This document shows, piece by piece, positions 4,645 through 22,935 of a stretch of 64,000 nt of DNA. Every line of letters begins with the position of its first letter. Positions within the stretch are counted from its first letter, which is position 1. A program made the position numbers and the translations under genes. This stretch comes from Verrucomicrobiales bacterium (GTDB lineage Bacteria; Verrucomicrobiota; Verrucomicrobiia; Verrucomicrobiales; DEV007). The stretch is from the NCBI GenBank assembly GCA_002698785.1, contig PAAG01000047.1:186001-250000 (forward strand), written 5' to 3'. The notes under the pieces are model-generated. The model was not told where the DNA came from. It saw only the letters and a program-made list of their open reading frames with translations, and did no database searches.

Positions 4645-7632
4645 TTATTCCACTCGAATCAACGGAAACCGGGAGATGCTGCTCGGCTTTACCGTGGTGG
4701 GATGCTGAATTCCACCCGAAAGTTCTTTCACTCGCTCGGCGACATAGGTGTCGAGTTCACGCAGTTGAATGAGGCCGTCTTCGATGAAATCGGCTTTTCC
4801 GGTGAGGCCCTCGATAAGGGCCAGAGTAAAGGCTCCGTGACCCCAGTCTTCGTGCTCGACGCTCTCTTCTCCCTGTGTCGATGCCGCCATCACCACGACT
4901 CCGTTCTCGTCGCTCGTGAGTTCGCGAATGGCTTCGGATGCATCTGCGACGTTCTTTGATGCTCCTCGAGTGTTGAATTTGTAAAGATTGTCTCCCAGCT
5001 GACCGCTGTGGCAGGTATCGAGAAACATGAGAGTCTTGGAGGGAAGGTTCCCGAGAATGTCGGCAAAGTCTCCCCAGGCCACTCCAGACCGCCGCAGGGA
5101 ATCCAATTCGGCATCCCATGGAACGAGGTAATAATTTCGTCCCTCGTTCATACCGTGGGCGGCCAGAAACAGGATGATGATGTCCTTTTGCGTTGCGCTG
5201 GCCTGGAGCCACTCCAGGCCTTCAAGGATTCCATCACGACTCGCATCGGCATCGATCAGCGTGCGAATCTCAGTCTTGTTGAAAAGCTTTCCCTTTTGAC
5301 CAGCAAATACGTCCGCAACAGCACGGGCGTCGTCATCACAAAAGCCCAGGGTCAATTCGGAGTTTTTGTATTCCGAGACACCTACGCTGAGCATGTACAG
5401 GTTAGGCATCATTTCTGCCGGGAGATCTTCGACGACCGCCGCGACTACTGGTGCAGGCGATGCCGGGGAAGGCGCTGGATCCGGAAGGGCTCGATAATGA
5501 ACGACCCGCTCTTCGCTGGTCGCTCCTGAATTCTCATTCTTCGCGAAAATAGACAGTCGGTTCTCCCCGGGAAGCAGGTCGAGCGTGTGATCTACTTCAT
5601 AGGTTTCGCCATCGATATTGTAGAAAGTCTCGACTGCTTTTCCGTTGAGGAGAAGCTTCACCTCCCGCAATGGGCTGCCGTCTGATTTCACGGTGGTTTT
5701 CACGTGAACCTGCGAGTCGTCAGAACTACCGCGAGTCTGCGCTGGAGAAATCCACACTACATCTGGAGGGAGTAACTTTGTGATATCCGCTGGTTCTGGA
5801 GTTTCTTCTCTTCCCCCCGAAGAAACTCCTTCCTCGAGGCTACGAGTTTTGACCACCGCACGAACTATCTCCGGCTTGTGGAACTGCTCTCGGAATACGG
5901 AACTGGGGAAAAATTCAGAAAGCTGATTTGCCGGCTTGTTCACATGCCAGCCAACATAACGTTCACCTCCCGGAGAGGCGGCATAGTGTCCGGAAGGTGC
6001 CCAACATACCCACTCGCCTGACCTTGATACAAATGCACTTGCCAGTTTTCTACCGGATTCCGGGTTCCAGAGATGAATCGCATCGCCGGATGCGGTAGCG
6101 AGATACTTTCCATCCTTCGAAGGGGCAACTGCAAATGTTGGCCCGATCTGCTCGGGAAAGATGCCGACCTGCTGACCCGATTGAGAGTATATACCGAGAA
6201 GATACTGCGAGCCGACGATCAAATTGCCGTTCGGCAAAAAAGAGAACGATCGAATCGAATCACCAGCATTGGGAATCACCTGTACCTGGCCCGCGTTCGA
6301 AAGGTTCAAATGTGTGACCGTTCCGTAAGAGACATTGACTCCGCTGTTCGACCAGTTGGCGCGGCGAAAATCTGAAAACGCCGCAGAGTCTTCCGTATCG
6401 AGAAAGCTCATTTCGATGAAATCGAAAATCCGGTGGAGTGGGTCATCCAATTCCTCGTCGTGAGTTGTGTCGGTGTAGTCGTTCCGATTTCCAAATGCAA
6501 CACGGACGCTTTCTTCGCTGTCTGCATCAATGGCGGCTGACCAAATTCCAGCGCCATCTCCCTCGATGGAACGAATGACCTGGGCCTGACCATTCACCAG
6601 CTTCCAAATCTCCACATCGTTGTTGTCTCCACCCGCACAGGCGATGGACTCGCCATCAGGATGCCAGCACATGCGAGACGTGCCGCTGGGTTGACCTTTG
6701 TAGCTACCGAGAAGGTTTCCGCCTGGCAAATCATATACATCCACAGAACAGGACTCCCGGGACCAACTCAGCGCGAGACGGCTGCTGTCTGGTGAGAAGG
6801 CAAAGTAGAAGAGAATTCCCCCCATGGCGGTGTCGATGGTCCGAATCGGTGAGCCGTCTCCACCCCAGAGGTAGACCTGCCCATTGCGACCTCCACCAAC
6901 GATATACTGCCCGTCAGGAGAATAGAGAGCCATACCCAGATTACCCGAACCCTGTCCGAGGTCGCCGAGCCCATTATAGAAACCGTTTGGCTGACGCTGC
7001 CAGACAAAACCCTGCCCGGCCGTATCAACGGAGAGCAGCATGGAGGCATCCGGGTTGGTGCTGATCATTCCCACGCCGGCTGTGTGGCCGACGAGAAACA
7101 CCGAGTCTGTGATTACTTGTGGCTGGTCGCCTGACATGCCAGTGAAAGAACTCATGTTCCAGATTCGGACCGAGCCCGAGGCATCTCCCGTGAAAAGCTG
7201 CGATCCATCGGAAGAAAAGTGAGAGCACATCACCGCCGCCTGGTGCCCGCGAAACAGAGCGACAATCTTGTTTTGCTGGCGATCAATCATACGAAGATCG
7301 AAGGCGGACTCGCCCGGCTGCCCTGTGCTGGTGGAAAAAGTAAGATAGCGACCGTCAGGACTCATACCAAAGGGGGACATTGCCCCTTCGAAATTATCTC
7401 CCTGCCGATGGCGGTATGTTTGGGTAATTTCACCGGTGGCGACATCCCAGACGCGGATCACTTTATCCTCACATCCTGTGATCAACTGCGAGCCATCGGG
7501 AGTGAATGAGATTTGACCCACAATTCCCGAGTGGCCTCTCGAATCGATGACGAGGCGCGGCTTTTCATCCTGAGCTGAGAGCCCCGTACAGAGCGAAGCT
7601 AATACCGACAGCAGAAGAACAGAGCGGACCAT
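4645..7632 (-). CDS. Secreted WD40-repeat protein with C-terminal caspase-like peptidase
   Basis: About 995 residues. The start at 7632 gives a good signal peptide (VRSVLLLSVLASLCTGLSAQ); the frame extends 81 bases further upstream with no added domain. Residues ~30-540 hold WD40-type blade repeats (GHSGIVGQISFTPDGSQLIT, VIRVWDVATG), then a Gly/Ser linker and an Ig-like stretch. The last ~230 residues form a peptidase C14 (metacaspase-like) domain starting at LYMLSVGVSEYKNSELTLGF, with the dyad His826 (LAAHG) and Cys874 (DTCHSG). WD40 plus caspase is a known bacterial combination; substrate and role are unknown. The signal peptide implies action outside the cytoplasm. It is single and convergent with phoU. 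Confidence 0.85.
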   Translation of the reverse strand: MVRSVLLLSVLASLCTGLSAQDEKPRLVIDSRGHSGIVGQISFTPDGSQLITGCEDKVIRVWDVATGEITQTYRHRQGDNFEGAMSPFGMSPDGRYLTFSTSTGQPGESAFDLRMIDRQQNKIVALFRGHQAAVMCSHFSSDGSQLFTGDASGSVRIWNMSSFTGMSGDQPQVITDSVFLVGHTAGVGMISTNPDASMLLSVDTAGQGFVWQRQPNGFYNGLGDLGQGSGNLGMALYSPDGQYIVGGGRNGQVYLWGGDGSPIRTIDTAMGGILFYFAFSPDSSRLALSWSRESCSVDVYDLPGGNLLGSYKGQPSGTSRMCWHPDGESIACAGGDNNDVEIWKLVNGQAQVIRSIEGDGAGIWSAAIDADSEESVRVAFGNRNDYTDTTHDEELDDPLHRIFDFIEMSFLDTEDSAAFSDFRRANWSNSGVNVSYGTVTHLNLSNAGQVQVIPNAGDSIRSFSFLPNGNLIVGSQYLLGIYSQSGQQVGIFPEQIGPTFAVAPSKDGKYLATASGDAIHLWNPESGRKLASAFVSRSGEWVCWAPSGHYAASPGGERYVGWHVNKPANQLSEFFPSSVFREQFHKPEIVRAVVKTRSLEEGVSSGGREETPEPADITKLLPPDVVWISPAQTRGSSDDSQVHVKTTVKSDGSPLREVKLLLNGKAVETFYNIDGETYEVDHTLDLLPGENRLSIFAKNENSGATSEERVVHYRALPDPAPSPASPAPVVAAVVEDLPAEMMPNLYMLSVGVSEYKNSELTLGFCDDDARAVADVFAGQKGKLFNKTEIRTLIDADASRDGILEGLEWLQASATQKDIIILFLAAHGMNEGRNYYLVPWDAELDSLRRSGVAWGDFADILGNLPSKTLMFLDTCHSGQLGDNLYKFNTRGASKNVADASEAIRELTSDENGVVVMAASTQGEESVEHEDWGHGAFTLALIEGLTGKADFIEDGLIQLRELDTYVAERVKELSGGIQHPTTVKPSSISRFPLIRVE

Positions 7633-7816
7633 GATGAATAGACGATTCGAGAGAAGATCTAAGCAGAAATTCCGCCCAACGAGAAGTCGGAGACGGTGAA
7701 AAAATTGTCCCACGACAGCAATACACTAACACAACAACATACTTAAGTCCAGAACATCCGCCAAAATGTCAGGAATTTACAAGGTATTTTCCTTCGAAGC
7801 TCAAGGAATCAAAGAA

Positions 7817-7873
7817 TACTGGCGGCGGGACTTGAACCCGCACGATCAAAAGATCAACGGATTTTAAGTCCGA
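7817..7873 (-). pseudogene. 3' half of a tRNA-Leu(UAA)-like gene (attachment-site remnant)
   Basis: Read on the minus strand this has an anticodon arm GGACTTAAAATCC, a long variable arm typical of tRNA-Leu (GATC TTTT GATC), a perfect T arm (GCGGG TTCAAGT CCCGC) and a 3' acceptor half CGCCAGT plus A. The 5' half, with D arm and acceptor partner, is absent: the next sequence is a TGTC repeat array. A truncated tRNA 3' half beside an integrase gene is the usual scar of tRNA-targeted integration. Its acceptor half does not pair with the intact tRNA-Leu at 13.1 kb, so the two ends do not come from one simple insertion into that gene. Confidence 0.7.
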
Positions 7874-7880
7874 AAAACTT

Positions 7881-7920
7881 TGTCCGCAACTGTCATCTTC
7901 TGTCACGACCTGTCGCGTTG
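7881..7920 (+). repeat. Four TGTC repeats at exact 10-bp spacing
   Basis: TGTC begins at 7881, 7891, 7901 and 7911, each starting a 10-bp unit, directly after the tRNA remnant. One helical turn per unit puts all four on the same DNA face, as expected for cooperative binding by integrase arm domains, an excisionase or a replication protein. A G/C hairpin (7923-7940, CCCCC/GGGGG) follows. The rest of the stretch up to the integrase holds no gene I can support. Confidence 0.55.
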
Positions 7921-7988
7921 AACCCCCTGTAAAATGGGGGATGTAGCGGATTTCAAGTTGACCAACGTGAACTCTCATGGACACTCTA

Positions 7989-8016
7989 TGTCAGAAAAAG
8001 TGTCCAAAAAGTGTCC
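7989..8016 (+). repeat. TGTC repeats overlapping the integrase start
   Basis: TGTC recurs at 7989, 8001 and 8012, spaced 12 and 11 bases; the last two lie within a direct repeat AAGTGTCCAAA. The integrase GTG start (8011) lies inside the array, so a protein bound here could repress integrase. The core matches the 10-bp array about 80 bases upstream. Confidence 0.45.
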
Positions 8017-9315
8017 AAAATTTCTCAAGACCCCAGCTATCGCGATCACCCTAAAACCAGTATCAAATACTGGGAGGGAGCAGTCTTTCGTCCGTCTCGC
8101 ATGCACGAAGGGGAAACAAAACTGGGCAAGTTCTATTGCGTGAAGATCGCGCATGACGGGAAGAGACAGACCTTCAATCTCAAGTCTGCAGAGAAAGGAG
8201 AGGCAGCTCGCAAGGCGAAGCAAATCTACCTGTCGTTGGTCTCGCGTGGATGGGAGGAGACTCTAGCGGAATATAAGCCTCAGAAAGCCAAGAATACTGA
8301 ATCCCCGTCTACCACCATTCAAACGGTTGGCGATCTGATCGGTGCAGCCTCAAGAGTCCTGACTGTTGGAGAGCGAACTGCCGCTGACTATGGCCGGGCG
8401 TTTCGCCACATCGCGGGTGACATTTGTGGAATCACAGTCAAGTCAGCCGGCTCCCGGGAAAAGTGGAAGCTCAGTGTAAACGATGTGCCGTTGACGATGA
8501 TCACACCGCAGGAGGTTCTCTCGTGGAAGAAGTCTTTCCTGTCGAAGAAAGCGGGTGATGCCGCAGCCCTCCGAAAAGCGAAAAACACCGTCAATACGAT
8601 CATGAGAAATGCCAAAGGCTTACTCTCTCGCAAAGTCGTCCCCTTTCTCGATCTACCAGATGGTTTTGTCTCCCCGTTTGAAGGGGTTCCCTTTGAATCT
8701 CGTCAGTCCATGAAATATCGCAGTTCGATCGATCTTGTGAAGCTTGTCGAACTGGCCAAAAACGGAGATGAGGCAAAGGAGATCGAACCTCTTACTCGCG
8801 AACTCTTCAAAATTTTCGTTCTCGCAGCAATGGCCGGGTTGATGAGAAACGAGATCGACAAGCTTGAGTGGCGAGCGTTTCTCTGGGACGAGGGGATTAT
8901 CCGACTGGAGACGACTCGAACATTTTCTGCGAAATCAGAGGAATCGAACTCCGATGTAGCGATAGACAAAGAGCTACTGGAATATTTTCATCAGGACTTT
9001 AAAAAGTCCAAGTCTCGGTTCGTCATCGCCTCCAAGAATGCCGCGAAAGTCGGAATGAGCCATTCCCACTACCGCTGCGCGAAGCTATTCAAGGAACTCG
9101 TAGGATGGTTGCACAGAGTCGGTGTTGATGAGCAGAAGCCCATCCATGTGCTGAGAAAAGAATTTGGCTCCCTGGTTTGTGATAAGTTTGGAATCTACGC
9201 TGCCAGTACAGCACTCCGGCATGGCGACATTCACATCACTTCTCAACACTACGTGGACTCCAAACGGAAAATCCGTCCTGAACTGGGAGAGCTAATTTCC
9301 GACAAAATTGCGTAA
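8011..9315 (+). CDS. int: Tyrosine recombinase / integrase
   Basis: A 434-residue phage-type integrase. The N-terminal ~90 residues resemble an arm-binding region (KLGKFYCVKIAHDGKRQTFN); residues ~100-200 a SAM-like core-binding domain; the rest the catalytic domain. Catalytic residues are recognisable: Arg279 (MAGLMRNEID), His379/Arg382 (HVLRKEFGS), His404 (ALRHGD) and nucleophile Tyr414 (SQHYVD). The start is GTG; no better in-frame ATG precedes it. It sits next to a tRNA-Leu 3' remnant, the probable att site, and heads the small element to ~13.1 kb. Catalysis looks intact, so the element may still excise. Confidence 0.9.
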   Translation: MSKISQDPSYRDHPKTSIKYWEGAVFRPSRMHEGETKLGKFYCVKIAHDGKRQTFNLKSAEKGEAARKAKQIYLSLVSRGWEETLAEYKPQKAKNTESPSTTIQTVGDLIGAASRVLTVGERTAADYGRAFRHIAGDICGITVKSAGSREKWKLSVNDVPLTMITPQEVLSWKKSFLSKKAGDAAALRKAKNTVNTIMRNAKGLLSRKVVPFLDLPDGFVSPFEGVPFESRQSMKYRSSIDLVKLVELAKNGDEAKEIEPLTRELFKIFVLAAMAGLMRNEIDKLEWRAFLWDEGIIRLETTRTFSAKSEESNSDVAIDKELLEYFHQDFKKSKSRFVIASKNAAKVGMSHSHYRCAKLFKELVGWLHRVGVDEQKPIHVLRKEFGSLVCDKFGIYAASTALRHGDIHITSQHYVDSKRKIRPELGELISDKIA

Positions 9316-10253
9316 TGGAGAAGATGCCCAAACCGAAGAAATTGCCGCTCACAGTGAGTGAGTATCCCGACGAGGAGTGGCACTTCATTCACTCCGAAAC
9401 TACCGAGTTGATCAAAAGCCGCGGATGGGATGAAAAGTTCCTTTTCTATGAAATGGCCCGACAACTGGAGCTTGAAGGGTCGATTCGTGAGGAACTGCAA
9501 ACCTTCCTCGCGAGAGTTTCCGAGGGTTATTTTCCGAACTACCCGTTCCTCCTGATCCCAGCGACTATACAGGAAACGATCATCGCGACGCTCAATGAGG
9601 AAGGTTCTCTATATGACATGCATTATCGCGTTTTGGCAACTCCTCGGCCGATCGAATGGTCAGCGGAGTCTCCTTTCCATGAGGAGCTCGAGCGTCAGAT
9701 CGAAAGTGCGGCATGGAATGCGGCAGCCGAAAAGGCGCAGTCTTTCGAGGGGCTGAATCCCGAAGATTTCATGCCAGGATCTTGCCCTGGCGATCGGGCT
9801 GCAGCTGCAGCAAAGCGCAGCATTGTCGCAGAAGGTGATCAGAGTCTCGACCAGTCTCAATATCACATCAAGATGCTAGTCGACCTCGACTACCCAAGAG
9901 GGAGGCTCATCGAGGAGTTTGAGAAAATTCTCTCTCAACTCAAATATTATCGAGACAAAAAATCATTCTCGAAAGATCAACGTGGGAAGAGTCGAGGTCG
10001 CGAGACCCAGCTGAGCGACTTTGCAGCATTCCGCCTTTGCGAGAAATATGGGAAAATGCCTGCTGCCCGTGACAAAGCAGAGCTAGATCCAAAGAAGGAC
10101 GTTGTGCAGCCAAGGAAGACAGTCGTAGAGACGGACGATGCCTGGAGAAAAAAAATCAAACGAGGTCGAGATATCATGGTAAAATTCCGTGACCGCTGGG
10201 GAACAAGAGTTGGAGAAGTAGACGTCGCATTGAATGAAGCAGATCAGAGCTGA
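9315..10253 (+). CDS. Uncharacterised protein of the integrative element
   Basis: A 312-residue, charged, soluble protein whose ATG shares a base with the integrase stop codon, implying coupled expression. I do not recognise a family. There is no signal peptide or membrane segment. The first ~120 residues look globular (WHFIHSETTELIKSRGWDE, FLFYEMARQLELEGSI), the middle is helical with an Ala/Glu-rich run, and the C-terminal ~90 residues are lysine/arginine-rich, consistent with nucleic-acid binding. As the only gene between integrase and the replication module it could be cargo or a partner of recombination. Confidence 0.7.
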   Translation: MEKMPKPKKLPLTVSEYPDEEWHFIHSETTELIKSRGWDEKFLFYEMARQLELEGSIREELQTFLARVSEGYFPNYPFLLIPATIQETIIATLNEEGSLYDMHYRVLATPRPIEWSAESPFHEELERQIESAAWNAAAEKAQSFEGLNPEDFMPGSCPGDRAAAAAKRSIVAEGDQSLDQSQYHIKMLVDLDYPRGRLIEEFEKILSQLKYYRDKKSFSKDQRGKSRGRETQLSDFAAFRLCEKYGKMPAARDKAELDPKKDVVQPRKTVVETDDAWRKKIKRGRDIMVKFRDRWGTRVGEVDVALNEADQS

Positions 10254-10326
10254 ACTTCGACTGTCAAAAGTGTTCATTTAAGCACATTCTCAAGAGCTTC
10301 TTTTCTGACGGCGTTTTGAGAGTCGC

Positions 10327-10347
10327 TCCTGCAATGACATTGCAGGA
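10327..10347. promoter_or_regulatory. Palindrome at the start of the HTH gene (possible operator)
   Basis: A perfect 9-bp inverted repeat, TCCTGCAAT-GAC-ATTGCAGGA, ends two bases before the ATG of the helix-turn-helix gene, overlapping its ribosome-binding region. A dimeric repressor such as the adjacent HTH protein could bind it as DNA, or it could fold in RNA and hide the start. Both readings are inference from position. Confidence 0.4.
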
Positions 10348-10349
10348 CT

Positions 10350-10532
10350 ATGAGCGACACATCGTTATTATCACGGCGCGAAGTAGCGGATCGATTCAAG
10401 GTTCATCCGAGAACTGTTTTCCGCTGGGAGGAGAAGGGACTGCTTACACCGGTGCGGGTAGGCAGTCGTATCGTCCGGTATGACCGGCAGCAGGTGGAAG
10501 ACCTGATTCAAGAGCGAAAGGAGGACGCATGA
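10350..10532 (+). CDS. AlpA/excisionase-type helix-turn-helix protein
   Basis: A 60-residue winged-HTH protein of the MerR/AlpA-like excisionase class: LLSRREVADRFKVHPRTVFR forms the HTH, then a wing (VGSRIVRYDRQQVEDLIQER). Such proteins in small integrative elements act as excisionases or activators of integrase and replication genes. Its stop overlaps the next start (ATGA at 10529), so it is translationally coupled to the primase-like gene. The palindrome just upstream may be its own operator. Confidence 0.85.
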   Translation: MSDTSLLSRREVADRFKVHPRTVFRWEEKGLLTPVRVGSRIVRYDRQQVEDLIQERKEDA

Positions 10533-11413
10533 GTGCCTTTCATTCGCTCCAGAAGCTTCCGCAAGACGTCAAGGAGCTGGTGAAACAGTGCCCAAAGACC
10601 GGTGGCGGGGTACACCCTTTTCTGTTTCACCTGGCACACAGAGCGAATCCCTTCCTGAACGCCCGGGAACTGGAAGAGATCCTGCGATTTTCTTGCCAAG
10701 ACTGCGGGCGGGATGTCCCAGCGAGAGAGATTGTCGAGACGGTCAAAAACGTTCGGCAATCTTCTTATCATTCGTCGATTGAGCACGAGAGCGCAGTAGC
10801 GCCGAAAAGAAAGGTGCCTGACTATTCGGAGGTGGCAGTGAAAGACGCCCTCTGTGCGAACTACCGGCCGCCAAGTCCTTTGGAGAGATTGCCTGGGACA
10901 GCCGCTGAAGTCTGCCGCCTCCTCTATGAGTCCGGTTCGCTTATCTGCACAGGACCTTCCTTATATCAGATGACGACTTCGACTCTGGAGTCTGCACTGC
11001 CATGGATCGATGGGATGCAGTTCATCGTGCCTTCGGCCATGTCGAAACTGATGGGTCTGAACAAACAGGGTGAGCTGTCACAGCGTTGTCTGGACAATAC
11101 CGGGCCGCGTCAACACCTCGTGGTCGAGTTTGATCGCCATGACCTGGAGGTTCAAAAGAAGCTCCTGCACTACTTGAGCCAGAAGTTGCCACTCCGGCTT
11201 ATCTGCCACTCCGGGAACAAGTCGCTCCACGGATGGTTTCACTGCTCAGAACGCAACGAAAGCGAACTGAGAAGCTTCATGGATCGCGCGATTCAACTCG
11301 GCGCCGATCCCATGACCTGGCCGCGCTGCCATGCTGTTCGCCTGCCGAACGGCTTCAGAAACGACAAGAAAATCAGAAATACCAAACAACATATCCTCGA
11401 ATTTTACTCATGA
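10529..11413 (+). CDS. Primase-like protein (archaeo-eukaryotic primase fold suspected)
   Basis: A 294-residue protein. The first ~75 residues resemble a primase-associated helical domain (HPFLFHLAHRANPFLNAREL). The C-terminal half has a pattern like archaeo-eukaryotic primases: an acidic pair (VVEFDRHDLE), then HSGNKSLHGWFH (the S-x-H nucleotide-binding motif) and AVRLPNGFR. I infer that it primes replication of the element after excision. It overlaps genes on both sides by four bases (ATGA), forming a tight HTH - primase - ATPase operon. A diverged, catalytically weak version cannot be excluded from sequence alone. Confidence 0.6.
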   Translation: MSAFHSLQKLPQDVKELVKQCPKTGGGVHPFLFHLAHRANPFLNARELEEILRFSCQDCGRDVPAREIVETVKNVRQSSYHSSIEHESAVAPKRKVPDYSEVAVKDALCANYRPPSPLERLPGTAAEVCRLLYESGSLICTGPSLYQMTTSTLESALPWIDGMQFIVPSAMSKLMGLNKQGELSQRCLDNTGPRQHLVVEFDRHDLEVQKKLLHYLSQKLPLRLICHSGNKSLHGWFHCSERNESELRSFMDRAIQLGADPMTWPRCHAVRLPNGFRNDKKIRNTKQHILEFYS

Positions 11414-12834
11414 ACAATCGCACCCTCTATGATGAAGAAGTCCCGCCCTTCCCTTTTGCGGGCCTGGAAGAAAAACACATTGGCCAACACTGTCTGGCTT
11501 TGAGCAGCGCGCTGGAGACGCCTCTCGAGTTCACAACAACTGCAGCATTGATGGCTGTCTCTGCCGCGGCTAACGGCGGCCTGTCGGTCGAGACCATCAG
11601 TGGTCTCACTACGAACTCGAATCTATTCTCCATCCAGGCTCTGCCCAGCGGCGCCGGAAAGACGATGGTCTATGAAAAACTGTTTCAGCCTCACGCCGAT
11701 TTTGAAGCGAACTACCAAGCAGCTTTTCGTTCCGATACTCTCCCCCAGATCGAAGCGAGGCTGAAGCTGACTGAGAGAAAGATTGATAAGCTCTCCCGGC
11801 CGACAGACGAGGGCGAGTCCCATCAACTGCTGGATGAGCTCTCGGCACTCTATAAGGAACAGAAGGAGTTGAAACGAAAGTCATTGGTTCCCCGCTTCCT
11901 GGCGGAGGATACGACACCTGAATCTCTCGAAGTGCTGCTCGCTGACTATGGTTCGATTGACCTCAATTCCAGCGATGCACGCAAATTGATCAAGAACCTC
12001 GCGGGGGAAGGTCGACGCGGTTCCCGGACCGAAGAGGATGTACTTCTGAAAGGTTTCTCGGGCGACCGTACGAAGGTGGACCGCATCTCGCGTGATAGCG
12101 TGTCCAGTCACCAGGGCGGTTCGCTCTCTATGAGCCTCACGGTTCAAAACGATCTGATCACTAAACTCTATTCCAACGAGTCACTGTCTGAATCTGGACT
12201 TCTTGGCAGGATCCTTCCTCTTCAGTTTTTCCCTGAGTCCGCGCCCTCACCGACGCCTTTCTCGGGGGACTTGAATCATTTTCAAAAGTGCTATGCGGAT
12301 CAGCTGAACCCGATTCTTCACACCTATCGCACTGCCAGCCCTGGAACCTACGTGGTCAAAGTGCCCACTGATGTGAAGCAGGTCATGGATCTCCACAGAC
12401 AACAGGTTCAGAAAAAGATGGCTGGTGAAGATGACGTCATCGTTCAATGCATGGCGAGATGGTCCGAGATTGCCTGGAAACTTGCGCTCGTTTTGCAGGT
12501 GATCTGCTTCGGAGTTGAGTCGCACAACCACCCCTTGCATATTTGGTGCGCCCAGAGGGCGATACAGATTGTGGAGTGGTTTGGCATTCAACAACGGCTC
12601 TGTCTTGAGAATGCGGTAAGCCAGTCGGTTTCATCGAAACTTCAGAGCATTGAGGCTCTGCTCTGTGACGCAGCCAACGGTCATGTTTCTTCCCGGGATG
12701 TCCAGCGTCGGATGAAGATCAACGCTGCGGAAGTAAGCAGATTGGTCTCGCTGTCGGACGGACGTCTGGAACTCTTCGAGCTTGAGTCGAGTGGCGGCAG
12801 ACCCATGAAGATGCTTCGCTTGGCCGTCAAATAG
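11410..12834 (+). CDS. DUF3987-type P-loop ATPase (element replication helicase-like)
   Basis: A 474-residue protein. The chosen ATG at 11410 overlaps the preceding stop by four bases; the frame extends upstream only through primase-coding sequence. Features: VPPFPFAGLE near the N-terminus, PLEFTTTAALMAVSAAANGG, then Walker A PSGAGKT (residues 79-85) in the typical DUF3987 context, and a C-terminal winged-helix-like segment (SRDVQRRMKINAAEVSRLVS). DUF3987 proteins accompany primases in phages, satellites and islands and are thought to act as DNA-loading or helicase ATPases. It is the last gene of the element's replication operon. Confidence 0.8.
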   Translation: MNNRTLYDEEVPPFPFAGLEEKHIGQHCLALSSALETPLEFTTTAALMAVSAAANGGLSVETISGLTTNSNLFSIQALPSGAGKTMVYEKLFQPHADFEANYQAAFRSDTLPQIEARLKLTERKIDKLSRPTDEGESHQLLDELSALYKEQKELKRKSLVPRFLAEDTTPESLEVLLADYGSIDLNSSDARKLIKNLAGEGRRGSRTEEDVLLKGFSGDRTKVDRISRDSVSSHQGGSLSMSLTVQNDLITKLYSNESLSESGLLGRILPLQFFPESAPSPTPFSGDLNHFQKCYADQLNPILHTYRTASPGTYVVKVPTDVKQVMDLHRQQVQKKMAGEDDVIVQCMARWSEIAWKLALVLQVICFGVESHNHPLHIWCAQRAIQIVEWFGIQQRLCLENAVSQSVSSKLQSIEALLCDAANGHVSSRDVQRRMKINAAEVSRLVSLSDGRLELFELESSGGRPMKMLRLAVK

Positions 12835-12872
12835 CTGGTGGTGTTGTCGCTCATAGGCACGGGGCGGCGCGG

Positions 12873-13012
12873 TGTCACTTTTGTCACTACTGTCCCTTGT
12901 GGCGTCGTCCGCCCCCGCGCACACCACCAAAAGAAGAAGAGCAAGCTTACTCTTTTATACCTTCGTATCAGGGGCTCTGCCCGTATGAGGGACAGTAGTG
13001 ACAAAAGTGACA
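12873..13012. repeat. Perfect 24-bp inverted repeats built from 9-bp TGTCAC iterons
   Basis: Bases 12874-12897 and 12988-13011 are perfect 24-bp inverted repeats separated by 90 bases. Each arm is three tandem units on a 9-bp period: TGTC at 12873, 12882, 12891, and the complement GACA-type units at 12989, 12998, 13007. The spacer is gene-free and ends in a T/A-rich stretch. Placement directly after a primase/ATPase operon suggests a replication origin; attachment-site arm sequences are the alternative, since TGTC repeats also lie at the left end. Confidence 0.7.
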
Positions 13013-13071
13013 ATCCCAGCAGACAGCTCTGAGCACAGCGTCCCCAGCAGCGGCCATGGGAAAAGCGGCAG

Positions 13072-13155
13072 TGCCCCGAGCCGGACTTGAACCGGCAAGG
13101 AGTAATCTCCGTTGGATTTTAAGTCCAATGTGTTTACCAATTTCACCACCGGGGC
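13072..13155 (-). tRNA. tRNA-Leu (anticodon UAA)
   Basis: A complete 84-nt class II tRNA. Acceptor GCCCCGG pairs with TCGGGGC (one G-U) plus discriminator A; D arm contains TGGTGAAATTGGTAAACACA; anticodon arm TTGGA-CTTAAAA-TCCAA gives UAA; variable arm GGAG-ATTA-CTCC; T arm GCCGG-TTCAAGT-CCGGC. No encoded CCA. Its anticodon arm contains the 13-bp sequence GGATTTTAAGTCC (plus strand 13114-13126) that recurs in the same orientation in the tRNA remnant at 7859-7871, so this gene is the probable right-hand landmark of the integrative element. Confidence 0.95.
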
Positions 13156-13246
13156 ATCTCCGTGTCTTCCCTTACACTGAGAGTGCCCTCCGCGCCAGTG
13201 CGAAAAATGGCCTCCCCCCAGCATCTGCCTGAGCCCCTCATTTCGT

Positions 13247-13845: not shown

Positions 13846-13874
13846 TGAGGGGTTAATGGACGATGCGGTGTTGT
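13846..13874 (+). promoter_or_regulatory. Shared island promoter element, copy upstream of cusC-like gene
   Basis: TGAGGGG (13846-13852), 14 bases, then GGTGTTGT (13867-13874), preceded by an A/T-rich run and ending 34 bases before the outer-membrane factor start. It is one of nine directional copies of AGGGG-N13/14-GGKGTTTC in the window; this copy has the least conserved right half. Confidence 0.55.
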
Positions 13875-13908
13875 GATTGTGGCGGGATTTTCTATCCTTG
13901 ACGAACAC

Positions 13909-15153
13909 ATGAAACACTTCTTTTTCGTTTCCATCATTCTTGCGCTTGCCTCTAACGGGCGCCACGCGCTCGCTCAGGAAGTCCCGCCTACCTTGGAAAG
14001 CGTTCTCCGTGAGGCTCTTGCCTCCAATCCGGAATTGTCGGCGCAGTTTGATCGAGTAAAGGCATCCCGCAAAATTGGAACTCAAGTGGGTGCTCTCCCC
14101 GACCCCAAGTTGAGCTACACAGAGTTCGTTTCTCAGGTTCAAACTCGCACCGGCCCTCAAGAGCGAGCGGTCAGCCTGACTCAGGCATTTCCCTGGCCCG
14201 GCAAGCTGATTCTTCGAGAAAGCATCGCAGACGAAAATGCTCGCTCCACATTCTTTCGTTTCGAGGCACAACAACGCCAGATCGTCCGTGAAGTCGGTCT
14301 GACTTTCTTTGACTACGCCTACCTTGGGGAAGCCATCCGGATCTCACGAAGGAACTACGAGTTGCTGGAACAACTCGCTCCGACAGTGGATACCAAGGTA
14401 CGCGCCGGCGGCGATCTGTCGGCCTCCCTGAGGCTGGAAGTGGAAACGACACGAGTAGAAGATCAACTTCAGGGCCTCCGGGAGCAGCGTTCCGCGTTGA
14501 GTTCGCGTCTGGAGAGTCTCATGGGCAGAACTCCGACTCTCAATACTCCTCTCCCGCTTCCCACACTCCCCGTCCGCCCTCCTTCCATCGACCCACTCGA
14601 GTCCTTGGAACGTCAGACAGCACAGCATCCTCTGATCGCTGCCGCTGAAGCTGGCGTGATGTCAGCTGATCTGGCAGAACGCCTCTCCCGCAAGTCTCCA
14701 CTCCCGGATATCAATATCGGAGCAAACGTCATCGACATCGGCAACGGGGGCGAAACAGCGGTGGGAGTCATGGTCGGCGTGAGCATCCCCCTCGCTTTTG
14801 ACAAATACCGGGCAGAGCGTGAAGAGAAGGCAGAACTGGCTTCGGCAGCCCGGGCCGATGTAACGAGCATGCAACAGCGCCTGCAGGCCGACCTACACCG
14901 CGCCGTGCAATCCTGGCGTGAGGCAAAGAAGAGACTCGACCTCTACCGGGAGAAGTTGCTTCCGTCCGCAGAGCAGGCACTCGAGTTGACGGAGGAAAGC
15001 TATCGCAACGACAAGGCAACGGTGACCGACTTGATCGACGCGGAGCGAACTTTGCTCGATCTACAACTCATGAATCAACGTGCCCTCTCTTCCGCCCACA
15101 AAGCTGCGCTTGAAATCCGAACGCTCACAGAACCCCTTTCCGTTGCCAAATAG
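13909..15153 (+). CDS. cusC-like: TolC/CusC-like outer-membrane efflux channel
   Basis: A 414-residue outer-membrane factor. ATG 13909 gives a clean signal peptide (FFFVSIILALASNGRHALAQ); the frame starts 36 bases earlier without added value. The body is the usual two OEP repeats of long helices and barrel strands (LREALASNPELSAQFDRVKA, SLTQAFPWPGK, and YRNDKATVTDLIDAERTLLD). It forms the trimeric exit duct for the adaptor and pump encoded next, 12 bases and then 5 bases downstream. The pump's CusA resemblance suggests copper or silver as substrate. Confidence 0.85.
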   Translation: MKHFFFVSIILALASNGRHALAQEVPPTLESVLREALASNPELSAQFDRVKASRKIGTQVGALPDPKLSYTEFVSQVQTRTGPQERAVSLTQAFPWPGKLILRESIADENARSTFFRFEAQQRQIVREVGLTFFDYAYLGEAIRISRRNYELLEQLAPTVDTKVRAGGDLSASLRLEVETTRVEDQLQGLREQRSALSSRLESLMGRTPTLNTPLPLPTLPVRPPSIDPLESLERQTAQHPLIAAAEAGVMSADLAERLSRKSPLPDINIGANVIDIGNGGETAVGVMVGVSIPLAFDKYRAEREEKAELASAARADVTSMQQRLQADLHRAVQSWREAKKRLDLYREKLLPSAEQALELTEESYRNDKATVTDLIDAERTLLDLQLMNQRALSSAHKAALEIRTLTEPLSVAK

Positions 15154-15165
15154 GATCGCCCGACC

Positions 15166-17547
15166 ATGAAGAGAACGATAATCACCGCATCTGCTGCCCT
15201 GCTGTCAGGGCTTTTGCTCGGATTCTTCCTGTTCCGCGGTCATTCACCTTCGGGGGAAGCGCATGATCATGGCAACGCCTCATCCGGAGGTGACGAGGAG
15301 GCCGCCGCTGAGGACGAAGTATGGACCTGCTCCATGCACCCGCAGGTCAAAGCTCCAAAGCCGGGCCTTTGTCCGATCTGCGCGATGGATCTGATCCCCC
15401 TCAGCGCAATGGGAGGAGGCGACGGCGAACGCAGCTTCTCCATGTCGGAAGCAGCCAAGGCCCTCGCCGGCATCACGACGGTGGAGGTCTCTCGTGAACA
15501 CCCGGAAGCCGAGGTCCGTCTCTATGGAAAAGTAGTTTACGACGAGACATCCATGCGAACCGTGGCAGCGAGGTTCCCTGCACGGATCGACCGCCTGTTC
15601 GTGGACTACACTGGAATTCGTGTCGAGAAAGGTGACCACCTTGCTGTGGTTTACAGCCCGGAACTGCTCAGCGCCCAGACAGAATTACTGACTGCCAAGA
15701 AGTTCGACAACCAGAAGGCGGTAGAAGTGGCACGGGACAAACTTCGACTCTGGGGGTTCTCCGAGAAGCGAATCTCTGAGATCGAATCTTCGGGCAAGAC
15801 ATCGGACCAGTTGATGATGGATGCTCCCATGGCGGGCATCGTCACTCACAAGAACGTGAACGAAGGCGACTACGTGCAGACAGGGACACCTTTCTTTCGG
15901 ATCGCCGACCTGGACGAAGTCTGGGTGCTGCTCGACGCCTACGAAAGCGATACACCTTGGTTGCGTTTCGGACAGGAAATTGCATTCACGACCGAGTCGA
16001 TCCCCGGCCGCACCTTCGATGGTCGCATTTCCTTTATCTCCCCCGAACTGGATCCATCGACCCGAACCGTCGCCGTTCGGGTCAATGTTCCCAATCAGGA
16101 GGAACTCCTGAAGCCGGGCATGTTCGTCTCCGGAATCGTGCATGCCAAGGTCGCTGGAGCTGGCCAGGTCCTCGATCCATCTCTCGCCGGCAAGTGGATC
16201 AGTCCGATGCACCCGGAGGTCGTCAAAGATGGACCGGGGCAGTGTGACGTCTGCGGGATGGATCTGGTTCCCGCCGAGAAACTCGGCTATGTCGCTGACA
16301 AGGATCTATCCGAGCCGCCAATGGTGATTCCCGTGAGCGCCGTACTTCACACCGGCAAGCGATCCGTTGTCTATGTGGAAGTTCCGGACACGGAGCAACC
16401 GACCTTCGAGGGGCGCGAGATCCTGATCGGCCCCCGCGCTGGAGACCAATACATTGTCGCAGCCGGCTTGAAGCCCGGAGAGCGTGTCGTCGCTCAGGGC
16501 GGATTTGTGATCGATAGTGCTCTGCAGATCCAGGCCAAGAAGAGCATGATGCTACCGGGCGACGGAGAGGGCGAACGTCTCTTCCCGGAAGCGCCGGCAT
16601 CGGAAGAGTTTCTAACGAAGTCGGACGGGCTTCTGGAGTCCTACTATGCGATCCAGAGCGCCTTGGCCGGCGACTCACTCGAGTCAGCGCAGAAATCTGC
16701 AGACGCTTTCCTCGAGCGACTCCGATCGGTTCCCTCGACCAGTTTGCCTGCCGCCTCCGCCGAAGTCTGGAAGGATCTCTCTGGCAGACTCGAAGAGAGT
16801 CTCGCCTCGCTGAAATCCCGGGAGGAAGTGGAACCGTTCCGGGCCGAATTCCAGAATCTCAGCCTGCTGGTCGATGAGATGGTTCGCCGCTTCGGCACCG
16901 CGAACCTGCCCGTCTTTGTTCACTACTGTCCCATGGCATTCGATGACACCGGGGGCAGCTGGCTACAGCCGGATGAAAACCTCCTCAACCCCTACTTTGG
17001 CGCCACGATGCTGCAATGCGGCGAAATCCGGGAGCAAATTGCGACGGCCAAGTCGATTCCCCTCGATGAGGAGGGGAGACGGGTCGTCGAGGAGATGGTG
17101 GCAGCCTACTTTTCTCTCCAGCAAGCTCTCGCAGAAGATTCGCTGGGCAAGGCAAAACAGGCAGCACAGACGCTCGCAGGCCAGTTGCCCGAGTTGAAGC
17201 GGGCTGCCGAAACCAATCCGCAAGGAGCCTTTCTCCTCAATGCCATCAGCAAGAATCTGGACTCCGTGGTCCAGTCGATTTTCGAGACGGACACGCTTGC
17301 GCAGCAACGGATCGGATTCAAAACCGTTTCCAGCGGAGTGGAGCAACTGGTGACCGTTTTCGGTGAAGGATTGAGCCAATCCATCTATAAGGCCCATTGT
17401 CCAATGGCTTTCAATGAACAGGGGGCAGACTGGCTTCAATCGGGCAAGGACATCCTCAACCCCTACTTCGGGGCCGAGATGTTGAAGTGCGGGGAGATCA
17501 AAGAGCAACTCACCGGAACGAAAGAAGACGGGAAAACGGATCAGTAA
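15166..17547 (+). CDS. cusB-like: CusB-like RND periplasmic adaptor with extra metal-binding domains
   Basis: 793 residues, nearly twice a usual adaptor. Order: N-terminal membrane anchor (ALLSGLLLGFFLF), a His-rich linker, a heavy-metal-binding domain (WTCSMHPQVKAPKPGLCPIC), the adaptor barrel/lipoyl/hairpin core (VEKGDHLAVVYSPELLSAQ; ARFPARIDRLFVDYTGIRVE), a second heavy-metal-binding domain spliced into the distal part (SPMHPEVVKDGPGQCDVCGM), then two copies of a DUF3347-type domain (YCPMAFDDTGGSWLQ / HCPMAFNEQGADWLQ with NPYFGA). The adaptor couples pump to channel; the added domains could capture and hand over periplasmic metal. A stand-alone DUF3347 protein lies at 27474. Confidence 0.9.
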   Translation: MKRTIITASAALLSGLLLGFFLFRGHSPSGEAHDHGNASSGGDEEAAAEDEVWTCSMHPQVKAPKPGLCPICAMDLIPLSAMGGGDGERSFSMSEAAKALAGITTVEVSREHPEAEVRLYGKVVYDETSMRTVAARFPARIDRLFVDYTGIRVEKGDHLAVVYSPELLSAQTELLTAKKFDNQKAVEVARDKLRLWGFSEKRISEIESSGKTSDQLMMDAPMAGIVTHKNVNEGDYVQTGTPFFRIADLDEVWVLLDAYESDTPWLRFGQEIAFTTESIPGRTFDGRISFISPELDPSTRTVAVRVNVPNQEELLKPGMFVSGIVHAKVAGAGQVLDPSLAGKWISPMHPEVVKDGPGQCDVCGMDLVPAEKLGYVADKDLSEPPMVIPVSAVLHTGKRSVVYVEVPDTEQPTFEGREILIGPRAGDQYIVAAGLKPGERVVAQGGFVIDSALQIQAKKSMMLPGDGEGERLFPEAPASEEFLTKSDGLLESYYAIQSALAGDSLESAQKSADAFLERLRSVPSTSLPAASAEVWKDLSGRLEESLASLKSREEVEPFRAEFQNLSLLVDEMVRRFGTANLPVFVHYCPMAFDDTGGSWLQPDENLLNPYFGATMLQCGEIREQIATAKSIPLDEEGRRVVEEMVAAYFSLQQALAEDSLGKAKQAAQTLAGQLPELKRAAETNPQGAFLLNAISKNLDSVVQSIFETDTLAQQRIGFKTVSSGVEQLVTVFGEGLSQSIYKAHCPMAFNEQGADWLQSGKDILNPYFGAEMLKCGEIKEQLTGTKEDGKTDQ

Positions 17548-17552
17548 TCGAT

Positions 17553-20500
17553 ATGCACCTTCCCGAAGAAGACCGTTCTCTGGTCACTCGCCTGATCCAG
17601 TTCTGTCTGCAGAACAAGCTGATCGTTCTGCTGATCGCTTTCATGCTGGTAGTCTGGGGTATCCTCGTGGCTCCCTTCGATTGGAAAATCGGCGGTCTTC
17701 CCAGGAACCCCGTTCCCGTCGATGCGATTCCCGACATCGGTGAGAACCAGCAAATCATTTTCACCGAGTGGATGGGGCGTTCTCCGCAGGATGTGGAGGA
17801 CCAGATCACGTTTCCGCTCACCGCAGCCCTGCTGGGAATTCCCGAAGTGAAGACAATCCGAAGCTACTCCTATTTCGGATTCTCCAGCATTTATCTCATT
17901 TTCAACGAAGACGCAGAATGGGACTGGTCCAGGGCCAAGATCCTGGAGAAGCTGAACAGCCTCCCCGCAGGCACCCTCCCGGAAGAGGTTAGCCCCGCCC
18001 TCGGTCCCGACGCCACAGCTCTCGGACAGGTGTTTTGGTACACCCTGGAAGGACGCGATCCGGAAGGCAACCCGGCAGGCGGCTGGGATCCGCAGGAGCT
18101 CCGCAGCATTCAGGACTTCTATGTTCGCTACGCGCTTCAGGGAACGGACGGGGTGGCGGAGGTTGCGTCCATCGGTGGGTTTCTCAAAGAGTATCAGATC
18201 GACGTCGATCCCGATGCGATGCGAGCATTTGGAGTCACGCTCGAACAAATCTTCAAGGCGGTGCGGAACGCCAATCTCGATGTGGGTGCCCGCACTATCG
18301 AGATCAGCCGGATGGAGTACGTGATTCGGGGACGTGGTTTCATCACCTCGCTCGACGATCTTCGCAAGACGGCGGTGGGAGCCCGAGGCGATATTCCCAT
18401 TACTCTCGATGAGGTGGCAGAGATTAGCTTCGGTCCGGCACTCCGAAGAGGTGTTCTCGACAAGGCCGGAGCGGAAGCGGTCGGAGGAGTTGTCGTGGCT
18501 CGTTACGGTGCCAATCCGATGGCTACGATCCAGAACGTGAAACAAACCATCGACTCGATCGCGGCGGGTCTTCCTCGCAAGACGCTTGAGGACGGAACTG
18601 TCAGTCAGGTGACCATCGTTCCCTTCTATGATCGGACTGGTCTGATTAACGAGACACTCGAAACGCTGAACACGGCCCTCACCGAAGAGATCCTGATCAC
18701 GATCGTCGTCGTGCTCCTGCTCGTCTTTCACCTACGGAGTTCCCTGCTCATCTCCCTCATGTTGCCGGCGGCTGTTCTCCTCACCTTCGTCGGCATGAAG
18801 CTATTCGGGGTCGATGCCAATGTCGTCGCGCTGTCTGGTATCGCCATCGCGATCGGGACGATTGTCGATATGGGGATCGTGCTCTGCGAGAACGTGCTCA
18901 AGGCTCTCGACCAGGCCGACGAGGATGAGCCTCGTCTCCCGATTATTTTTGCCGCCTGTTCCGAAGTGGGAGGCGCCGTGCTCACGGCCGTGCTGACAAC
19001 CGTGATCAGTTTCCTGCCCGTCTTCGCGATGGAGGGTGCCGAGGGCAAGCTCTTCAAGCCACTCGCCTACACCAAGACCTTCGCGCTGATCGCATCCGTC
19101 CTTATTGCACTGACGCTGCTCCCCCCGCTGATCCACATGCTCTTCAAGCGGCGGCTCGACGTCTTTTCCGACCGCTCGCCCCGGATCCATCTTGGTTTCA
19201 TCATCGTGCTTTGCCTTGTCGTTATCGCCTTCCTTGGCACTGGCTGGGCACCGCTTGGTCCTGCCTACGGACTCTGGAACCACCTGTTCGTAGCCGTGAT
19301 CATCGTCACCCTTCTCGCGCTCATCTACGGATTCATGCATGTCTATGAGCGGGTGCTTCGGTTTTTTCTCCGGGCAAAGTGGCTCCTCGTCCTGTTGGTG
19401 AGCACCGTGGTAGCCTGTGGATTCCTCATCTACAAGGGCCTCGGGAAAGAGTTCATGCCCTCCCTCGATGAGGGTTCCTTTCTCCTGATGCCGACCACAA
19501 TGCCTCACGCCTCGATCGGCGAAGCCAAGCGGGTGCTCCAGTTGCAAGACCAGGCCATCAATGCAATCCCGGAGGTAGAGATGGTCGTCGGCAAGATCGG
19601 CCGGGTGGAAAGTTCGCTCGATCCCGCGCCTGTCAGCATGATCGAGACCGTCATTACCTACAAGCCGGAGTGGGGAGAAGATGAGAATGGAAAACGAATC
19701 CGGCTCTGGCGGGATCACATCCAGTCACCGGACGACATCTGGAAGGAGATTGTCGCCGCAGCGGAGCTACCGGGAGTGACATCCGCCCCGAAGCTGCAAC
19801 CGATCGAGACCCGCATCGTCATGCTTCAGACCGGGATGCGCGCGCCCATGGGATTGAAGGTGTATGGCCCCGATCTGGAGACCATCGAAAACGTGGCTCT
19901 CGAACTCGAAGCCATTCTCAAGGGAGTGTCGACGATCAACCCCGCGACGGTGTTTGCCGACCGCGTCGTCGGCAAGCCTTACCTGGAGATCCACATCGAT
20001 CGCGAGGCCATTGCCCGCTACAATATCAGCATTCGGGACGTGCAGGATGTCATCGAGGTGGCGATCGGCGGTCGCCGCATTACGACAACGGTGGAAGGAC
20101 GCGAGCGCTACCCGGTCCGGGTGCGCTACCTGAGGGAACGTCGAGACTCGATCGAGGAACTCCGTGAAATCCTTGTTCCTGCACCCGATGGCAGGCAGAT
20201 CCCGCTTGGTGAGCTCTCCGATGTCGAATTCGTCCGTGGTCCTCAGGTCATCAAGAGTGAGGATACGTTCCTCGTCGCCTACGTCATCTTCGACAAGCAG
20301 CCCGGCAACGCGGAGGTCAGCGTGGTCAATGATGCGCGTGCCCTCATCGAGCAGCACATCGAGAGTGGAGATTTCGTCGTTCCCGCCGGCGTCAGCTATC
20401 AGTTCACGGGCAGCTACGAGAACCAGGTCCGAGCCGAAAAGCGTCTCGCTTTGATCGTGCCGCTCGCCCTGATGCTGATCTTCATCCTTATCTACCTGCA

Positions 20501-21071
20501 GTTCCGTGTCGTAAGCACTTCGCTTCTCGTCTTCAGCGGGATCTTCGTCGCGTGGTCGGGAGGATTCATCATGATTTGGTTTTACAACCAGCCCTGGTTC
20601 CTCGATTTCGCACTGGGAGGTGTCGAGTTTCGCGAGCTGTTCCAGATCAATCCGATCAACCTGAGTGTCGCTGTCTGGGTCGGCTTCCTGGCCCTCTTTG
20701 GCATTGCCACTGATGACGGCGTCATCATGGCCACCTACCTCCAACAGAAGTTCCGGGCCAATCAACCGGCCACCCGACAGGAGATCCGGGACACCACTGT
20801 CGAAGCCGCCGTGAAACGTAATCGCCCTGCCATGATGACCACCGCCACGACTCTGCTCGCATTGCTCCCGGTGCTCACAAGCGACGGTCGCGGCTCTGAC
20901 GTCATGGTTCCCATGGCGATCCCGACGTTCGGCGGTATGACCGTCGCCATCCTCACCGTGTTTGTCGTACCCACGCTCTACTGCTGGATCGAGGAGACCA
21001 AGTACTCCTGGAATCGGCGGAAGTCACAGAATGCAACCACCCCGAAAACCGAATCTGAAACCCCTTCCTGA
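17553..21071 (+). CDS. cusA-like: CusA-like heavy-metal RND efflux pump
   Basis: A 1172-residue HME-RND pump. I start at ATG 17553, five bases after the adaptor stop; the frame's longer version overlaps the adaptor. It begins with TM1 (LIQFCLQNKLIVLLIAFMLV) and the family motif PVDAIPDIGENQQIIFTEW. TM4 reads GIAIAIGTIVDMGIVLCENV, closer to CusA than to the Asp/Asp/Glu pattern of CzcA, and METRIVMLQTGMRAPMGLKV-type porter sequence (ETRIVMLQTGMRAPMG) is also CusA-like. It is expected to export monovalent copper or silver from periplasm to outside. It completes a cusCBA-order operon beginning at 13909. Confidence 0.9.
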   Translation: MHLPEEDRSLVTRLIQFCLQNKLIVLLIAFMLVVWGILVAPFDWKIGGLPRNPVPVDAIPDIGENQQIIFTEWMGRSPQDVEDQITFPLTAALLGIPEVKTIRSYSYFGFSSIYLIFNEDAEWDWSRAKILEKLNSLPAGTLPEEVSPALGPDATALGQVFWYTLEGRDPEGNPAGGWDPQELRSIQDFYVRYALQGTDGVAEVASIGGFLKEYQIDVDPDAMRAFGVTLEQIFKAVRNANLDVGARTIEISRMEYVIRGRGFITSLDDLRKTAVGARGDIPITLDEVAEISFGPALRRGVLDKAGAEAVGGVVVARYGANPMATIQNVKQTIDSIAAGLPRKTLEDGTVSQVTIVPFYDRTGLINETLETLNTALTEEILITIVVVLLLVFHLRSSLLISLMLPAAVLLTFVGMKLFGVDANVVALSGIAIAIGTIVDMGIVLCENVLKALDQADEDEPRLPIIFAACSEVGGAVLTAVLTTVISFLPVFAMEGAEGKLFKPLAYTKTFALIASVLIALTLLPPLIHMLFKRRLDVFSDRSPRIHLGFIIVLCLVVIAFLGTGWAPLGPAYGLWNHLFVAVIIVTLLALIYGFMHVYERVLRFFLRAKWLLVLLVSTVVACGFLIYKGLGKEFMPSLDEGSFLLMPTTMPHASIGEAKRVLQLQDQAINAIPEVEMVVGKIGRVESSLDPAPVSMIETVITYKPEWGEDENGKRIRLWRDHIQSPDDIWKEIVAAAELPGVTSAPKLQPIETRIVMLQTGMRAPMGLKVYGPDLETIENVALELEAILKGVSTINPATVFADRVVGKPYLEIHIDREAIARYNISIRDVQDVIEVAIGGRRITTTVEGRERYPVRVRYLRERRDSIEELREILVPAPDGRQIPLGELSDVEFVRGPQVIKSEDTFLVAYVIFDKQPGNAEVSVVNDARALIEQHIESGDFVVPAGVSYQFTGSYENQVRAEKRLALIVPLALMLIFILIYLQFRVVSTSLLVFSGIFVAWSGGFIMIWFYNQPWFLDFALGGVEFRELFQINPINLSVAVWVGFLALFGIATDDGVIMATYLQQKFRANQPATRQEIRDTTVEAAVKRNRPAMMTTATTLLALLPVLTSDGRGSDVMVPMAIPTFGGMTVAILTVFVVPTLYCWIEETKYSWNRRKSQNATTPKTESETPS

Positions 21072-22856: not shown

Positions 22857-22935
22857 AACACGTTTCCCTTTGTTTATTCTGCCATTTGAGCAATCTTGTT
22901 CTATGGCGGGTGAAAAACAGAACAAAAATAGAACA
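22854..22935. promoter_or_regulatory. Repeated (T)AGAACA boxes around the AAA ATPase start
   Basis: TAGAACA at 22854, its inverse TGTTCTA at 22897-22903, AGAACA at 22919 and TAGAACA at 22929 cluster within 82 bases spanning the start codon of the AAA gene. The first two form an inverted pair 36 bases apart. They may bind the helix-turn-helix segment at that ATPase's own C-terminus; this is inference from spacing and location. Confidence 0.3.

Follow-up and report, generated by a model that had tools for sequence, protein, structure and literature searches.

The window studied here is a 64,000-nucleotide stretch of the genome of a Verrucomicrobiales bacterium (G000; a 7.0-Mb draft of 60 contigs, estimated contamination 4.97%) and comprises positions 186001-250000 of the 780-kb contig C50. 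Towards its left end lie a remnant of a tRNA-Leu gene (R), five genes headed by an integrase gene, and an intact tRNA-Leu(UAA) gene (A), with a 13-bp repeat common to R and A. An initial annotation had located all of these correctly and had taken them for a compact integrative element of about 5.3 kb. The left end of an integrative element does lie at R, but its partner end is 94 kb away, outside the window, in a second tRNA-Leu(UAA) gene (B). We are highly confident that the element is a 94,044-bp tRNA-targeted genomic island with metal-resistance cargo, integrated in B.

Remnant R and the two tRNA-Leu(UAA) genes

R occupies positions 7817-7871 on the minus strand, with the repeated core at 7859-7871, and A occupies positions 13071-13155 on the same strand. 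A is a complete gene with a well-paired acceptor stem (GCCCCGG/TCGGGGC) and is the sole tRNA gene called by ARAGORN in the window; at R the program called nothing. The 13-mer, GGATTTTAAGTCC, is found at 7859-7871 and 13114-13126; it represents the tRNA-Leu(UAA) anticodon arm and is common to any two genes of this kind. G000 has three copies in its 7.0 Mb, the third lying at contig position 287903 (window-relative 101903) within B (C50:287860-287943), which ARAGORN calls as tRNA-Leu. Among 63 tRNA matches, A and B were typed as Leu(UAA), and that they are the only two rests on the occurrences of the 13-mer. This word was present in 24 of the 33 genomes of the genus, four of the places fetched being non-tRNA.

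The acceptor halves clearly separate R from A. As already recognised in the initial annotation, the half retained by R (CGCCAGT) is incompatible with the GCCCCGG of A, and the two have only the 13-mer in common. R and B, in contrast, have an 18-bp word in common that spans the core, CGGACTTAAAATCCGTTG, and the 5' half of B opens with GCTGGCG, giving six Watson-Crick pairs and one G-U pair with the acceptor half of R. A tRNA-Leu gene starting with ACTGGCG had been suggested as worth searching for; the gene found is B, with the slightly different start just given. The suspicion that R derives from a tRNA-Leu gene other than A is borne out; the proposed jump between different tRNA-Leu genes is not supported.

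The 3' half that B now carries closes with TGTCGGT, which leaves four G-U pairs among its seven acceptor pairs. The acceptor stem energies were -6.3 kcal/mol for B, -11.2 kcal/mol for the 5' half of B joined to the 3' half of R, and -12.6 kcal/mol for A, and the Rfam tRNA score was 54.6 bits for B versus 61.2 bits for A. We restricted the comparison to acceptor stems because minimum-energy folds of whole tRNAs (B, the joined form and several relatives) gave no cloverleaves. When acceptor pairing was scored in the relatives, four pattern places that were non-tRNA and two remnants without a 5' half were left out and the score of L094, which is cut at a contig end, was void; among the 23 intact genes kept, including A of the related genome G028, the most wobble-rich stem had three G-U pairs (G019). 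B is a chimera, because the 3' half supplied by the island comes from another tRNA-Leu type, and R is the displaced native 3' half of B, in the same orientation as the regenerated gene. Among the relatives' loci compared, the best match to the tRNA of B was that of G007 (95% over 80 nt), which suggests that an earlier host of the island was G007-like.

Ends of the island and their counterparts in relatives

The two ends at R and B also share a word inside the island. At positions 7997-8021 (plus strand), overlapping the start of the integrase gene, lies a 25-bp word containing the 11-mer AAGTGTCCAAA twice in tandem, and the identical 25 bp recur at the B end (contig positions 287773-287797). 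The two copies have the same orientation; one starts 126 bp inside the core of R and the other ends 106 bp inside the core of B. All four copies of the 11-mer in the 400 kb examined lie at these ends. The 25-bp word is missing beside A, where the longest word that 500 bp have in common with the R end is 10 bp. In a random control of 300 pairs of 500-bp stretches the longest common word was 14 bp, which 0 of the 300 exceeded. As a positive control, a 9.6-kb element in G023 has one 25-bp word at both of its ends, likewise a tandem spaced by 11 bp, which lies roughly 108 and 88 bp from the cores. Judged by this layout, the words are probably arm sites of the integrase. Between the cores the island measures 94,044 bp; its body fills the window from 7872 to 64000 and continues to B. 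Its GC content is 56.6%, versus 53.1% for 400 kb including the island.

It might be argued that the stretch from R to A is nevertheless an element of its own, 5.3 kb long and nested within one end of the 94 kb, that either moved between tRNA-Leu genes or was rearranged. The 13-mer does have the same orientation in R and A, the five enclosed genes would form a plausible minimal element, and the G023 element shows that small integrase-DUF3987 elements exist at this tRNA. The misfit between the acceptor half of R and A, the lack of an arm word beside A, and the fit and common end word of R and B all argue against it, as does G028, in which A and its 5' flank occur on a 7.5-kb contig without an integrase gene. 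We consider this explanation very improbable. Since A contains the core, rare recombination between R and A is possible as a side reaction.

A related right end was found in G006. One of its contigs opens with a tRNA-Leu(UAA) gene of the GCTGGCG/CGCCAGT type and aligns to the right end of the island from the tRNA onward (5,167 bp at 75% identity, with further blocks to about 13 kb). The same tandem 11-mers are present, and a protein of unknown family, 82% identical in the two, starts 1,976 bp from the tRNA in one and 1,977 bp in the other. The G006 contig with the 5' half of the tRNA runs into the esterase block that adjoins B. This independent sister junction, the position of the island within a 780-kb contig and the same arm word at both ends speak against a misjoined assembly or binning of the 94 kb or of the region of A, which we regard as a most unlikely explanation even though the genome is a draft with some estimated contamination and tRNA repeats end contigs in G006 and G013.

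The native flanks are recognisable in other relatives as well. The genes right of B (C50:289.4-301 kb) sit 5' of tRNA-Leu in 10 of the 23 relatives that bear the 13-mer (G004, G005, G007, G008, G011, G017, G019, G023, G025 and G030), and on the other side of it in G009. The genes left of R (C50:171-183 kb) sit 3' of tRNA-Leu at 0.78 kb in G013, 15.9 kb in G008 and 25 kb in G010. Apart from the tRNA itself and the two copies in G023, the 3' sides of 17 flanks from 15 relatives share only short weak matches, and because these flanks differ we regard the tRNA-Leu site as an integration hotspot. Clean insertions at it were seen in G011 (2.6 kb) and G023 (9.6 kb). The island is absent from the same site in the relatives, which carry other DNA 3' of the tRNA, or in G006 a related right end, though no clean empty site was found. 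Besides one intact gene, G005 has tRNA-Leu 3' remnants at C23:20302 and C25:8081 (L240, L095), perhaps another chimera or stacked islands. In G011 (L070:14256-15482), a bacterial open reading frame (ORF) combines a ubiquitin domain of eukaryote-like type (Pfam 2.6e-30) with an autotransporter beta-domain downstream of it (1.3e-16).

A number of observations weigh against an island spanning R to B or limit that reading. No empty site was found that joins the left flank of R directly to the 5' half of B; in the nearest candidate, that of G013, the contig breaks off at the tRNA, with 0.78 kb remaining on the other side. When eight relatives were walked further 3', the gene block from left of R appeared in two and was absent from the stretch read in the other six, in G032 a portion of the block lies 5' of the tRNA, and in G000 itself 10.8 kb separate it from R. 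The left end of the G006 island was not found, and two further contigs of that genome each contain a single 11-mer. The 2.6-kb insertion of G011 has no shared end word. Wobble-rich acceptor stems are not unique to B, as the tRNA of G019 has its three wobble pairs without a known island; nor are mismatched remnants unique to G000, because one of the 3' remnants on two contigs of G005 misfits, by eye, the intact gene of that genome. Finally, a search of 12 chosen genomes with B as the query gave no match in G028 and so missed A there, and a diverged second tRNA-Leu(UAA) gene in G028 could likewise have escaped it.

On balance we assign the 94 kb to a tRNA-targeted island because R fits B, the end words agree between R and B, G006 has the corresponding right end, and relatives retain the native flanks. 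In the course of events that these features suggest, the integrase would have inserted a circular island at the anticodon arm of B, the native tRNA-Leu(UAA) gene, and the native 3' half would have been pushed to the far end as R. The island's own 3' half, from another tRNA-Leu type, would then have completed B, leaving a host 5' half, a foreign 3' half and a wobble-rich acceptor stem.

Gene content of the island

The 5.3-kb unit is the left-end integration and replication module of the island, and A is cargo. Its five proteins, to which the PHROGs search was confined, are all encoded on the plus strand. The integrase (8011-9315, 434 amino acids) lies 140 bp inside R and matches phrog_1 (E 1.4e-15), with no Pfam or PDB match; its true start is uncertain, a GTG lying within the arm repeat. 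By eye, it has R279, H379, R382, H404 and Y414, which we take to be the R..HxxR..H..Y residues of tyrosine recombinases. A scan of named genomes with the integrase returned three distant loci (titled Verrucomicrobiota, Verrucomicrobiia and Opitutales), none with a tRNA gene. Related integrases lie beside apparent 3' halves of other tRNAs (by eye) at L238 and L239 (G006) and L243 (G025); L238 and L243 also have tandem words where the integrase starts, and the integrase family may generally use tRNA anticodon arms.

The integrase gene is followed by genes for a 312-amino-acid protein (9315-10253) with no confident Pfam, PHROG or PADLOC match and for an AlpA/MerR-type helix-turn-helix (HTH) protein (10350-10532; Pfam MerR_1 7.8e-9, HTH_17 2.8e-7; phrog_66 excisionase 2e-9), a possible excisionase that might assist excision of the island. 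The next protein (10529-11413, 294 amino acids) is weakly primase-like, its only match being to phrog_2597 DNA primase (E 5.7e-4), with none in Pfam or PDB. The fifth is a DUF3987 protein (11410-12834; Pfam DUF3987 4.3e-38, phrog_2373 helicase 4.2e-33) and probably a replication ATPase; it contains PSGAGKT, while the strict P-loop pattern is unmatched. Between this gene and A, a repeat search found a perfect 25-bp inverted repeat (12873-13012; arms 12873-12897 and 12988-13012) with a 90-nt loop and an RNA fold of -67.2 kcal/mol. In a whole-genome DNA search its arms matched only each other; a terminator, an origin or a scar left when A arrived are possible readings of it. The left flank just outside the island (4645-7713) encodes a 1022-amino-acid protein that combines WD40 repeats with a caspase domain at its C terminus (Pfam Peptidase_C14 3e-17); PADLOC gave no label to this protein or to two of the left-module proteins.

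The remainder of the island includes cargo genes. A metal efflux operon on the plus strand (13873-21071) encodes OEP, CusB-type and RND proteins (Pfam OEP 2e-36, HlyD_D23 2.8e-71, ACR_tran 2.7e-182), and it is followed on the same strand (22870-26350) by an IetA-IetS-like anti-phage defence pair, an AAA ATPase and a subtilase (PADLOC IetA 1.4e-80, IetS 9.8e-60). Altogether, the middle of the island, in which the defence pair lies, encodes three RND efflux proteins along with partners of the membrane-fusion and outer-membrane types, P-type ATPases, a multicopper oxidase and cation-efflux proteins. Towards the right end there are NERD-domain proteins, an AAA protein, a DUF3150 protein, a PD-(D/E)XK nuclease, GYF-domain proteins, an HTH protein and two proteins of unknown family, as well as a clamp-like protein whose match is weak and under the Pfam cut-off. 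One right-end protein had by eye looked DUF3987-like, an idea that we dropped as neither it nor its G006 relative has a Pfam match. Outside the window, at C50:265034-273582, lies a NERD-domain cluster with a 1398-amino-acid protein (weak HEAT match) and a DUF4062/PDC-S60-like protein, possibly a defence cluster.

These assignments come from a Pfam scan of 51 distinct island ORFs, covering 38 of the 39 ORFs of at least 250 amino acids in a greedy list of 87 of at least 80 amino acids; the remaining one is antisense to two scanned efflux genes. No relaxase, coupling protein or secretion family was found by Pfam in the 51 ORFs, nor any capsid, terminase or packaging family. Within these ORFs the island thus shows none of the relaxase, coupling and secretion genes of an integrative conjugative element, and it has neither the small size of a phage satellite, being 94 kb long, nor, in the same ORFs, the genes for interference with capsids and packaging that mark one. 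Phage satellites (phage-inducible chromosomal islands, PICI, and P4-like elements) share with it an integrase, an AlpA-like regulator and primase-like genes; they differ in that the island is 94 kb long, carries metal-resistance cargo and has no packaging gene among the scanned ORFs. The description in the initial annotation as a satellite or minimal integrative plasmid is not supported.

A second copy of the right-end module, with a clamp-like protein 79% identical, was seen in G000 at C22:322001-342000 (L242), where it lies near another tRNA gene (C22:321043), perhaps a second related island. The module has relatives in G028 and G004 as well, and this scatter, the different modules at the two ends and the hotspot character of the tRNA would suit a composite origin, in which a small element came first to B and insertion of other elements or stacking of islands later enlarged it to 94 kb. 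A is, however, the only internal copy of the 13-mer, and both outermost ends bear the same arm word. Such an origin is possible but less likely than not. It would in any case alter the history of the island and not its present ends.

The carried tRNA gene and its possible role

All 84 letters of A were found in G028, where no other tRNA-Leu(UAA) was detected; A lies there some 3 kb away from the esterase gene by which the native locus is recognised. Its 5' flank (13156-13206, minus strand), probably a promoter, is conserved there too, with 91% identity over 13069-13206. As the whole of A and this flank recur in G028, we rule out that A is a product of the integration. In a sample of 288 genomes of the order, A matched at E ≤1e-12 in four, namely G000, G028 and two others, whose matches have 85% and 80% identity and span no more than 88 bases. 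The match in G028, its place there and the distribution in this sample are why A looks like a promoter-plus-tRNA unit spread between species and riding in the island here.

No exact 34-mer of A occurred in viral contigs. A known phage or plasmid tRNA is likewise rejected as its source: 76 phage and 98 plasmid records match part of the query, none of them more than 80% of it. Identity to A was 90-95% in 3 phage and 80-90% in 68 plasmid records, and 74.7-82.8% among the phage and plasmid matches listed. Codon usage did not support a codon-driven need for tRNA-Leu(UAA), as UUA and UUG together make up 15.66 per thousand codons in 39 ORFs of the island and 15.72 in 16 of the flank, which is no difference; taken by itself, UUA is rarer in the island.

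The class of tRNA-targeted islands is well known, the Islander database listing 3919 islands, 2083 of them with an anticodon-centred site (PMC4383910). As described there, such islands have a displaced 3' tRNA fragment at one end, a regenerated tRNA at the other and an integrase inside, and the present island agrees with its R, its B and a tyrosine integrase (phrog_1, no Pfam match) near one end. It departs from the class in the poorly paired chimera at its target and in the second complete tRNA gene with the same anticodon and core. The 9.6-kb element of G023 (L087) resembles it in the same tRNA and crossover, a Phage_integrase protein, an unknown middle protein, DUF3987 (by Pfam) and tandem 25-bp end words. 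That element is about a tenth of the size, has its integrase beside the intact tRNA and not the remnant, and has identical tRNA 3' halves and thus no chimera.

A parallel to the combination of target and carried tRNA is tRNA-dependent lysogeny, in which paired arm-type sites also flank the core (PMC10865867). In our case the core is the anticodon arm of B, so that a tRNA gene overlaps the site; the carried gene, A, has the same anticodon as the island's target. In apparent difference from that account, a tRNA-Leu is rebuilt here, though with four G-U pairs and a weakened stem, and the carrier is a metal-resistance island and not a phage. A may be mere cargo. By analogy with the tRNAs carried in tRNA-dependent lysogeny, it may also cover for a weakened B, and a backup role of this kind is plausible. 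That the island can invade ill-fitting tRNA-Leu genes because it also brings a complete tRNA-Leu(UAA) gene with its own promoter is a tentative proposal, and we think it somewhat unlikely. In a literature search of partial coverage we saw no report of an island that combines a chimeric target with a cargo tRNA of the same anticodon.

Two consequences concern islands in general. A spare tRNA gene within an island can mimic an island end, a trap for searches that pair tRNA genes with nearby remnants, and a target tRNA that is a cross-lineage chimera retains a trace of the donor lineage. The case further raises the question whether islands, besides phages, carry isoacceptor tRNAs that offset damage to the target gene. 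Substitution of host tRNA genes by prophage-borne ones is mentioned for Sinorhizobium (PMC11476347). If the backup role proposed for A were true, it would represent tRNA-dependent integration in a non-phage island of Verrucomicrobiota, and the carried tRNA could eventually take the place of the native one; G028 may be a case in which this has happened.

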